Positions 2,577 to 34,860 of a stretch of DNA of 49,254 bases are shown in pieces; the first letter of the stretch is position 1; every line of letters begins with the position of its first letter. The stretch comes from Bacteroidales bacterium. GTDB taxonomy: Bacteria > Bacteroidota > Bacteroidia > Bacteroidales > Muribaculaceae. The stretch is taken from the NCBI GenBank assembly GCA_030524765.1, contig JAUNGA010000008.1:1-49254 (forward strand), in the 5' to 3' direction. Both the position numbers and the translations under genes were made by a program. A model generated the notes under the pieces. It did not search any database. It had not been told where the DNA came from and saw only the letters and a list, made by a program, of their open reading frames with translations.

Positions 2577-4682
2577 TCATTTGTTCTGGTAGACGGTATC
2601 GACTGTAGCTATATAGAAGTCCTTGCCGAGGTAGCGGGCGTTGCATTCAACTTTATATAGCCTTGCCGGTCCTTCGGGGATTTGTACATCTTCGACGGTT
2701 TCTTTAAAACTTCTTTTTGCGTGCCAGTCTGTAAAATCTATGACCGTGTCTGTATCGCTGAAATAGTAAAAACGATCCGTAAATCCATGATGGAGACCAT
2801 ATTCACGTATCTCATGGTAACGAGGTCCACTATAATCTGAATATTCAAGACCATAAGCGCGATAATAGGGCACATAACGGACATACCAACCATCAACATG
2901 ATGATCTCCGTTTCCAAATTTTATATCGGTACCGAATATCTTATATTCAGACCAATAATTAGGCCCAAAAGTATCGATGTATCCATCTTCGCGAAGTAAT
3001 AATGGTGATAATTTGTTCAAATCGGGAACTCCTGTTTTTGCACCGCGAATTGCAGTTGTTGCACTCTCTCCATATATAGTATATTGTTTAAATGTCAGGA
3101 CTTCATCATCAGAAATATATTGTTCCAAATAATCAAATGACGAGAATGGATTAGATGTGGAAAGCGATACATCAAACATATAGTTTCCGCTGCGGTATTC
3201 TTCGGTTTTGGTCTGGCCGTTTGAGTAGATGAGTTCGCGCTCGATGATGTAGCAGGAGCGCAGGGCGAGATTGTCGTGGGCGTCGTACCATTCGTAGCGG
3301 CGATTGTATTTGACGTCGACAAGCTTCAACTCAAGGGCGGCGATGTAGGTCACGACGTAGTCGACGTCGAAGGCGGCTGGATGGTCGCCGGGGGTGCCCT
3401 CGGCTGTGGCGGTCTGCGAGAACGTGGCCGTGACCTCGTAGACGTCGGCCATCTTGGCCGGGGACTTGCCATTGTCCTCAAGCTTGCGCGTGGTGACATC
3501 TTTGAGTTTCACGGGCGAGAGGCTGTAGTAGGGCATCGCTACGTCCAGACCGTCGGGGGCGGCGGCCTGCTCGTAGCTCCAGCCGATTGTGATGGACTTG
3601 TCGCCGACTGCGAAGATCTGCGCTGCGTCAGCGGCACCGGTGGCGTCGGGCGATGTCTCCGTCAGGCGGGTGAGCTCCTCGGCGGAGGACACCCACACAG
3701 TGTCGCGCACGGCCGAGACGGTGACCGCGGCCCTCGGCTCGCTCACATAGCGGTTCTTATACTCGTCGGTATAGACTGAGGTCTGAGCCAGCTCCAAAGC
3801 CATGTCCTGCCCGGGGGTCTGCACGAAAGGCGAGGCGGAGGAGAGGGTGCCGCCTCTGACGCTCCACGCGTACGACAGCGTGGCTACGGGATCGTCGAGG
3901 GTGGTGGTGGTCTCGACCACGCCGATGTAGGATGCCGAGAAGTCGAGCGTGCGGGTCTCGCTCTTGATGGCGTTGACGCTCTCGAGGGTGATGTTGAAGC
4001 GGACGTTTACCTCATACATTGCCGAGTCGGTGACGGTGATGGCGCGCGAGCGGGGGGCGACCGGTCTGACGGAAACGTCGGCCACTGCTACGGATGCACG
4101 CGAGCCGGAGCGCTGCTCGACGGCCCCGGCGGTGCCGGTCCTGGCCGCGTTGGGACGGATGTAGGGCATCTCGACTTTGTCGCCGACCGAGTTGGTGATT
4201 GTGAACACATCATAAGCCATGTCGAGGCTGATCTCCTGGCCGCCGACCGCGATTTTCTGCCCGATGGTGTGACGGACGGGCATCGTGCCGTTCCGGCCCG
4301 TGGAGACGTCTGATGCGTCGCCGGGCTGTCTGAGCTCGTCAAGGGTGCGGGCATGCACGGTGTCGTGCATTACCTTGACCGCTATTGTCGCCTCGGGCTC
4401 CCGGGAGATGACTGACCCGTCGGGGTCGTTGTAGGTGCTCTTCTGGGAGACGGTCAGCGCGAGCGGCTCGTCAGGAGTTACGGCGAGGGGCGAGGAGACG
4501 GTTCCGGCGCCGGAACCGCCGGGGATGTCCACCGTGAATGCTACATCGCCCGTCTTGGGGCTGTCGGGTTCGGGCCCGGGCTTAGGCTCATCATTGCTGC
4601 AAGCCGACAACACACACAGGGCGAAAGCCAACAGATACACGGACACAAAGGGTCGTATAGAGAAAATAGCTTTGAAATTCAT
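2577..4682 (-). CDS. Large lipoprotein of unknown function with two internal repeats
   Basis: A 701-residue predicted lipoprotein: basic start MNFKAIFSIRP, hydrophobic core, lipobox LSAC, then an acidic Pro-rich linker. An in-frame ATG 30 bases upstream (4712) is the alternative start. Two similar modules of about 180 residues follow. Each begins with a Gly/Ser strand and VSSP or LSSASP, then a LALTVSQ or MALELAQ strand, a YNDPDG or YTDEYKN turn, EPEATIAVKV or EPRAAVTVSA, and a DTV element. They look like duplicated beta-sandwich domains. The C-terminal 220 or so residues are Tyr/Asp-rich, unrelated to the repeats, and encoded by AT-richer DNA than the rest, which suggests domain exchange. 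I do not recognise a function. Surface or periplasmic location is inferred from the lipobox. Confidence 0.75.
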   Translation of the reverse strand: MNFKAIFSIRPFVSVYLLAFALCVLSACSNDEPKPGPEPDSPKTGDVAFTVDIPGGSGAGTVSSPLAVTPDEPLALTVSQKSTYNDPDGSVISREPEATIAVKVMHDTVHARTLDELRQPGDASDVSTGRNGTMPVRHTIGQKIAVGGQEISLDMAYDVFTITNSVGDKVEMPYIRPNAARTGTAGAVEQRSGSRASVAVADVSVRPVAPRSRAITVTDSAMYEVNVRFNITLESVNAIKSETRTLDFSASYIGVVETTTTLDDPVATLSYAWSVRGGTLSSASPFVQTPGQDMALELAQTSVYTDEYKNRYVSEPRAAVTVSAVRDTVWVSSAEELTRLTETSPDATGAADAAQIFAVGDKSITIGWSYEQAAAPDGLDVAMPYYSLSPVKLKDVTTRKLEDNGKSPAKMADVYEVTATFSQTATAEGTPGDHPAAFDVDYVVTYIAALELKLVDVKYNRRYEWYDAHDNLALRSCYIIERELIYSNGQTKTEEYRSGNYMFDVSLSTSNPFSSFDYLEQYISDDEVLTFKQYTIYGESATTAIRGAKTGVPDLNKLSPLLLREDGYIDTFGPNYWSEYKIFGTDIKFGNGDHHVDGWYVRYVPYYRAYGLEYSDYSGPRYHEIREYGLHHGFTDRFYYFSDTDTVIDFTDWHAKRSFKETVEDVQIPEGPARLYKVECNARYLGKDFYIATVDTVYQNK

Positions 4683-4723
4683 ATAGAGGGGTGATAAAAA
4701 TCGGTAATTCATTACATTCGGTA

Positions 4724-4749
4724 CAAATTTAGCGATAATTTACCCCCCC
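4724..4749 (-). promoter_or_regulatory. -7 element preceded by a G7 tract, upstream of the lipoprotein gene
   Basis: On the minus strand a run of seven G (4749-4743) lies 11 bases upstream of TAAATTTG (4731-4724), that is, inside the -33/-7 spacer. No clear TTTG is seen at the normal distance. A change in tract length would change promoter spacing. Confidence 0.45.
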
Positions 4750-33669: not shown

Positions 33670-34814
33670 TTATTGTTGTTGATCTTTCCGTTTTTGTGAG
33701 ATTAGATTGAAAATAAAACCTTTTACTTTTTTCGTGTTTCGTTCGAATATGAGATAAATCAAGTAAGAACCGAACAGACCGATAAGCAAGAACGCAAAAT
33801 AGAGAATAATTGTATAGCTATTCAGAACTTCGGCTTTTTCTGCGCCGAAGTAAAACATAAGATCTCTCAGAGGGAGGTGTACAAGATAGAGTGTATAAGA
33901 GAATGCGGCCAGTTTTGTACCAATTCGGTTCAGAGTCACACTCCACTTATGTCGAGGAGAATAAACTACAATCTGACTGATGAAAACACCGAAAAGTAGT
34001 CCGAATGCTACTTCAAATATACTGTGGGAATGTGGCCCTAAGATGTCTGTAACATGAAAGGATGTACGACTGCCGGATGACAGTTGCATCAAGGGTATAA
34101 GCATCAGTGAAAATAAAAGACTGACAATTATCTTTTTAGTATCACTTTTTATCGGAATATGCCTGTAGACCAAAGCTCCTGTAAGCCATATAAAAATATA
34201 GTAAGCTTTCAGGTGGCTGAAAACCAAAAAACTTGTACCAATTAATATATAGCTCCAGATTATCTGTTTTTTTGTTTTAGCTAACATCCATACAGCGATC
34301 GCCCCGGCAATTATATAGAACCATACCTCATATGATAATGACCATAATACAACGATCTCACTGTTTACGACGATTCCCTGTAGTGAAAGTAGATTGCCAA
34401 GAATTCGCAGCGGTTCAATAGGTTTGTCATACACAATCTCCACTATAAGTTGGAGTAGAAGAGCCGAAATCAAAGGCAACATGATCCTGACACTTCTGTC
34501 TACTGTGTATTGTGTGAGGTTAAATGTCCTGTTCTGACACCGTTCTATTAGTTTGCCTCCAACCAAAAATCCGGAGAGAACAAAGAAAATCATCACAGCC
34601 TCATTTCCCAATCTGGTGAGAAAATAAAATCCGAAAATGACCGGATTATGTTGCGATGGCATCAAATCGCTATATTCAGGTAGAAATACGGCTCGGTAGT
34701 GACTTGCTATTACAAGGAATGCTGCCAAAAAACGTATTAAATCAAGCCATTGGAAATGAGTATGACCATTTATATTGACTTTTGCGGGGGGGTAATTTGT
34801 TGAATATCAGACAT
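33670..34814 (-). CDS. Acyltransferase-3 (OafA/YrhL-type) gene, out of frame at a C7 tract
   Basis: An integral membrane O-acyltransferase with about ten helices; EAVMIFFVLSGFLVGGK, LWSLSYEVWFYIIAG and YTLYLVHLPL are family signatures. The continuous frame opens only at a TTG (34728), which would remove the conserved start of the first helix. Upstream in the same frame the codons read GHTHFQWLDLIRF, exactly what the family needs, but there is no start codon. An ATG at 34814 lies in another frame, and a run of seven C (34792-34786) separates them. One extra C gives a 381-residue protein beginning MSDIQQITPPAKVN; with seven, translation stops after 14 codons. The gene is AT-rich and probably acquired; such enzymes modify surface polysaccharides. 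Confidence 0.85.
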
Positions 34815-34852
34815 TTGTTGCAAGGTTGTGATTTTACTCCATTATTTGACTG

Positions 34853-34860
34853 CAAATTTA
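34853..34860 (-). promoter_or_regulatory. -7 element upstream of the acyltransferase
   Basis: TAAATTTG on the minus strand lies 38 bases before the ATG at 34814, supporting that ATG as the real start. A TTTG is present but only 12 bases upstream. The rest of the spacer to 34976 shows nothing else I can support. Confidence 0.5.

Follow-up and report, generated by a model that had tools for sequence, protein, structure and literature searches.

A C-run at the start of a Muribaculaceae acyltransferase-3 gene: a candidate slipped-strand switch and its recurrent sequence module

Introduction

Slippage switching is an old mechanism, and the repeat found in oafA of Haemophilus influenzae is of the tetranucleotide type. 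The product of oafA is a phase-variable O-acetyltransferase that turns the acetylation of a surface glycan ON and OFF (as cited in passages of PMC11868660). In Bacteroides fragilis, an acetyltransferase-related gene is frameshifted at a run of four C, for which the authors, in the passage concerned, suggest slippage (PMC3090145). The phase variation described in published passages on Bacteroides is DNA inversion, in agreement with the remark, made in a preliminary description of the present locus, that Bacteroidales are known mainly for that process; a slippage switch would add to it a second layer of surface diversity.

The locus discussed below lies in a stretch of 49,254 nucleotides from a Muribaculaceae genome, which was analysed as a whole and is called the window. 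It places a run of seven C (C7) between a start codon and the reading frame of an acyltransferase-3 enzyme, in a sequence setting that recurs in other genomes of the family.

A C-run between a start codon and an enzyme frame

All features of the locus are read on the minus strand. The -7 consensus of Bacteroidetes promoters is TAnnTTTGC, and the sequence TAAATTTGC, read directly at 34860-34852, which we take to be a -7 box of this type, is separated by 37 bases from an ATG at 34814. This ATG opens a leader frame of 14 codons (34770..34814; ATG TCT GAT ATT CAA CAA ATT ACC CCC CCG CAA AAG TCA ATA TAA) that spans the C-run and ends at the TAA at 34772-34770. The run itself (34786..34792), the proposed slippage site, has exactly seven C in the assembly, a consensus call in a MAG of 127 contigs that is 90.77% complete, and is part of a conserved module, CAACAAATTACCCCCCC (34786..34802), recognised by its recurrence in family genomes and by its presence in the nearest relative, L003. 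Directly 3' of C7 begins the acyltransferase-3 frame (33670..34785, 371 codons and a stop), from which the frame of the ATG at 34814 is shifted by one base; with a simple repeat sitting between the ATG and the enzyme frame, tract length sets the reading frame. Followed upstream of the tract, the acyltransferase frame consists of seven open codons preceded by TGA, with no ATG, and its first ATG, GTG or TTG downstream is a TTG at codon 20 (34726..34728), inside the first helix. The preliminary description had placed a promoter element before the ATG at 34814, the C7 at 34792-34786 and the end of translation at 34770, and had seen no start in the acyltransferase frame before the TTG at 34728; the sequence agrees with it to the base.

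Runs of C7 or G7 are not in excess in the window (three, against a mean of 3.75 in 100 shuffles), and the idea that the tract exceeds chance by count alone was ruled out. The 17-mer CAACAAATTACCCCCCC, with up to three mismatches allowed, matches twice in the window against 0.10 times in shuffles, the exact match being the tract of the acyltransferase gene and the other (4733-4749) having three mismatches. C7 alone is unremarkable; it is its setting that carries the weight. Read on the minus strand, the C7 at 4743-4749, within the inexact match, lies between TAAATTTG and TTAA repeats, and a 711-aa frame (2577-4712) that has no Pfam match follows after about 30 bases. This C7 resembles the poly-G promoter-like sites treated below, but with a different spacing.

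The enzyme, its genomic setting and its relatives

That the frame encodes a full acyltransferase-3 protein, as originally proposed, is borne out by the Pfam profile PF01757, which its 371 codons match over positions 2-325 of 326 (84.8 bits against a curated cut-off of 31, E 7.6e-24). It also contains, in the first helix, the RX10H motif of the acyltransferase-3 family (RFLAAFLVIASH, 34699..34734), whose R and H are invariant in eight aligned sequences, and profile and motif together place it in the family. No stop interrupts the 371 codons after the tract, the conserved motif residues are intact, and divergence from L003 is highest at third codon positions (0.443, 0.308 and 0.667 over the three positions). 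NCBIfam assigned no family to seven of the acyltransferases studied here, a PDB sequence search returned a single unrelated match (E 0.24), and no homolog of the window gene was confirmed in the viral contigs searched.

The gene has a G+C content of 38%, against 55% for the window. It is present in only its own genome among 49 of the genus (E 1e-20) and in two of 397 genomes of the family, its own included (E 1e-15), and every one of 48 genus genomes has its upstream neighbour. The sister loci number 29, five with shorter downstream sequence and 24 with at least 1000 bases of it, and the acyltransferase is absent downstream of the conserved neighbour in all 24. These figures mark the gene as accessory and as probably acquired horizontally. 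Its Pfam-scanned neighbours include no glycan genes.

A scan of genome contigs yielded 14 relatives. The nearest, L003, comes from another MAG, labelled Prevotellaceae, shares about 50% protein identity and carries ATG AAT AAG CAAATTACCCCCCC at the same place, with a C7 that is also off-frame, at a different offset. L004 (labelled Muribaculaceae, 44-45% identity) is intact and without a C-run. Its start lies some 14 residues ahead of its LDLIRF motif, so that the window protein would be expected to begin at the run or close to it. Tract counts in related genomes, which had been suggested as a check, gave a divided answer: L003 has both leader and C7, and is the only one of the 14 relatives with a start run, whereas L004, the other 12 and two further sequences, L017 and L279, have none. 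For the other 12 and L017 this means that C or G runs of at least six are absent near the expected start, a position that is approximate since several of the matches are partial. That these relatives lack a start run speaks slightly against a switch kept over a long time. The window gene and L003, its only close leader-bearing relative, are both off-frame, and an in-frame form of the window gene itself was not seen.

Recurrence of the module

Shorter forms of the module are widespread: of 397 family genomes, 97 contain CAAATTACCCCCCC and two its reversed control, 34 contain CARCAANTTACCCCCCC and one its control, and CARCAAATTACCCCCC is present in seven of 393 genomes of the order, including the window's own (control, zero). 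Merging of identical contexts gave 125 sites, comprising 119 from the family search, five that the order search added in other families, and the one in L003. Of these, 56 look like promoters when the other strand is read; several of the remaining 69 lie at gene starts, and the others fall between genes, inside them or close to their ends. In the gene contexts, read by eye, the module gives QITPP in some genes, KLPPP in others and NYPP in L142; being read in different frames, it points to conservation of the DNA and not of the protein, and selection or a mutational process thus appears to act on the DNA.

Some sites lie elsewhere in genes. In L061, L062, L170 and L193 the module stands close to the 3' end of frames that were read mechanically, where a change in length might swap the C-terminus, and in L049 it interrupts a glycosyltransferase-2 gene mid-gene. 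A type I restriction specificity gene (L262, G311:C71:2696) is broken by C8 in the stretch that separates the two recognition domains, a possible case of phase-variable methylation.

Genes with a C-run at the start

Fifteen start-tract genes, hand-picked from several searches and so not a census, and not chosen by frame state, divide into seven in frame and eight off-frame; the eight acyltransferases among them divide four and four. Off-frame are the window gene, L003 and two genes in L257 (all C7), a DUF6056 gene (L261, C9), a gene with no Pfam match (L263, C9) and two LRR_5 genes (L270, C7; L271, C8). In frame are four PF01757 genes (L258, C8; L259, C9; L276, C9; L260, C8), two TonB-plug SusC-like genes (L265 and L142, both C8) and a CHASE2 gene (L266, C8). 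In 13 of the 15 the ATG precedes the run by 13 to 22 bases, and the nearest useful ATG lies 55 bases before it in L263 and 109 in L265. L260 shares about 50% identity with each of L259 and L276, and all three have a C-run at the start, its flank being altered in L276. The two L257 genes (G260:C30) are adjacent PF01757 genes, each off-frame at its own C7 start run, in a locus that also holds glycosyltransferase-2 genes, a UDP-galactopyranose mutase and, marginally below the cut-off, a match to Wzy_C. A further gene, L267 (DUF3575), whose site is shared with L180 and passes the strict rule described next, was excluded from the 15, its start likely lying further downstream.

A strict start-tract rule retains eight of the 119 family sites, L180 being a doubtful one, and two of 19 C7-or-longer tracts in the window's own genome. 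Random window positions pass in 2.1% of cases (1.0% in frame and 1.1% off), so that 8/119 is a modest excess in which single cases can be chance. A stronger signal than this excess is the share of acyltransferases, as five of the eight strict sites precede PF01757 genes. Baseline PF01757 matches number 521 in 99 genomes, or 5.3 per genome, and the binomial P for five of eight is 5e-9 if one gene per hundred is assumed to be PF01757. A start run was present in none of 90 sampled PF01757 genes, made up of the 30 best loci and 60 picked by the author from the next ranks; two of the 90 have a run about 220 bases upstream. Few acyltransferases would thus be switched in this way, yet a large share of the strictly defined, putatively switched genes is acyltransferases.

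Length differences between near-identical copies

The window's own genome contains two BspA-type LRR genes with the same start arrangement as the window gene, the off-frame L270 (G000:C33:18205) and L271 (G000:C119:2094) introduced above, whose runs of C7 and C8, respectively, are set in DNA otherwise identical over about 140 aligned bases, from the promoter region through the leader and on. Between L089 and L164, one a viral contig and the other a family genome, 1406 of 1492 positions are identical and the alignment has two gaps, each of one base and both inside G runs. More broadly, among 20 pairs of sites whose flanks agree at 68 or more of 100 bases, run length is unequal in 14, although 11 of these 20 pairs fall within a single group of five host-unassigned viral contigs.

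L164 and L089 carry a phage-like gene matching phrog_887 (queuine tRNA-ribosyltransferase), preceded by the two G runs that differ by one base between the copies. It was dropped as an on/off pair, some relatives starting after the tract, and kept for the length change only. Genomes of one genus differ in their counts of 8-C positions, which, with overlapping positions counted, run from 7 to 440 (G027, G037, G040 and G032 compared with G031 and others).

A promoter-like poly-G class on the opposite strand

At 56 of the 125 CAAATTAC(6+) sites, a TAnnTTTG box lies on the opposite strand 9-14 bases past the G-run and its TAATTTG, at exactly 12 bases in 49 of the 56; a control stretch 200 bases away gave three boxes at any distance. 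The resulting layout, seen for example in L053, L066, L149 and L188, consists of TTAA repeats, G7-10, TAATTTG, 12 bases and TAnnTTTG. Across all the DNA gathered for the analysis, 58 sites have a box and at least seven G, and 49 of them carry at least two TTAA in the 32 bases upstream; a search with the box reversed gave no site. Run lengths of five or six were not seen, in DNA that had been selected by runs of at least seven.

A frame of at least 90 codons begins within 320 bases in the promoter direction at 50 of the 56 sites, and in the other direction at 27. By a simple hydrophobicity rule, 40 of the 50 promoter-direction frames have secreted-protein-like starts, compared with five of the 27 in the other direction and 33 of 184 mechanically listed background frames. 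L142, which is also a start-tract gene, may be a false promoter call. If these sites are promoters, the length of the poly-G run may switch them.

Discussion

We consider it likely that the window gene is a slipped-strand on/off switch and that the assembled sequence presents it in the OFF state. Slipped-strand mispairing at the C-run beside the ATG would alter tract length, the changed length would set the start codon in or out of the enzyme frame, and translation of the acyltransferase-3 would thereby be switched on and off stochastically, the assembled C7 corresponding to OFF. Such length changes would be expected at a high rate in living populations, and the ON protein would O-acylate a surface glycan. 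Slipped-strand phase variation is well supported by comparison of sequences. The early suggestion of phase variation at C7 has been strengthened by the recurrence of leader and run at other gene starts, about half of them in frame, by the one-C difference between the own-genome LRR paralogs over some 140 bases, and by one-base differences in G/C runs between near-identical sequences of different source. Against a switch, hypermutable tracts would be expected to be longer than seven C.

One alternative is that the gene has suffered a fixed loss, the module being an ordinary leader and the frameshift a one-base break at the C-run or an assembly miscount. All four C7 acyltransferases are off-frame, so that a share of them may be frozen losses, and the gene of interest is an accessory one, confined to its own genome among 49, missing from 24 sister loci and known from one assembled MAG of a single species. 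A decayed gene would nevertheless be at odds with 371 codons that carry no second lesion and an intact motif, with a module found off-frame in three independent genomes (those of the window, L003 and L257) and in frame elsewhere at longer runs, and with the C7/C8 LRR pair; we regard fixed loss as unlikely. C runs can be slippery, and leader and tract are suitably placed for ribosomal or transcriptional slippage to yield some protein from unchanged DNA. However, genes that share module and run vary in the offset from ATG to gene, the window gene and the first L257 gene needing a shift one way and L003 and the second L257 gene the other, and seven genes are in frame at the DNA level, unlike what a fixed frameshift signal would entail; because the direction needed differs between genes, programmed frameshifting is rated low, as a very improbable explanation. 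It is also rather improbable that CAAATTA and the C-run are mainly a protein-binding or promoter element, regulatory at a coding start and with length variation secondary. The same 14-mer does occur on the other strand of the promoter-like sites (56 of 125), but most start-tract sites have no -7 box at the fixed distance, only L142 belongs to both classes, its box lying at the limit of the distances allowed, and the exact flank is missing in L276 and the LRR genes, which have kept the run.

Slipped-strand switching at gene starts, our preferred reading, might be one half of a larger arrangement, although we put this forward tentatively and would not call it the probable outcome. There may be a family-wide cassette acting at two levels, in which CAAATTA with a C-run would switch translation at the starts of genes for acyltransferases, SusC-type receptors, LRR proteins and others, and on the other strand would form a promoter with a poly-G spacer (TTAA repeats, G7-10, TAATTTG, 12 bases, TAnnTTTGC) that would tune transcription of genes for secreted proteins and lipoproteins. 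If true, the cassette would make up a contingency system alongside the invertible promoters already known. The slippage signature is searchable and could be read from existing metagenomic reads, and a switch of this kind would matter for the escape of gut bacteria from phages, for immune recognition and for variation at the strain level.

The poly-G/C loci of Campylobacter, Neisseria and Helicobacter, as described in the literature, resemble the proposed system in that runs of G or C, inside genes and in promoters, switch surface-structure genes; they are not known to share a flank such as CAAATTA. In oafA of Haemophilus influenzae, from what is cited of it, glycan acetylation is phase-variable, as proposed here, but in another phylum. 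The invertible promoters of Bacteroides (Mpi), in the published passages, likewise provide phase variation of surface glycans and belong to the same order, but they operate through DNA inversion by a recombinase. The Bacteroides fragilis case also involves one extra C, in a polysaccharide locus of a Bacteroidales species, and differs in being a single strain comparison, with four plus one C and, in the passage concerned, no mention of a recurrent module (PMC3090145). Among the matches listed from the open-licence literature, the passages on Muribaculaceae and Bacteroidales contain nothing on homopolymer phase variation beyond that remark. Slippage and phase-variable glycan acetylation were thus already known, and what appears to be new is a recurrent module in Bacteroidales that, judged from its sequence, would bring the two together.
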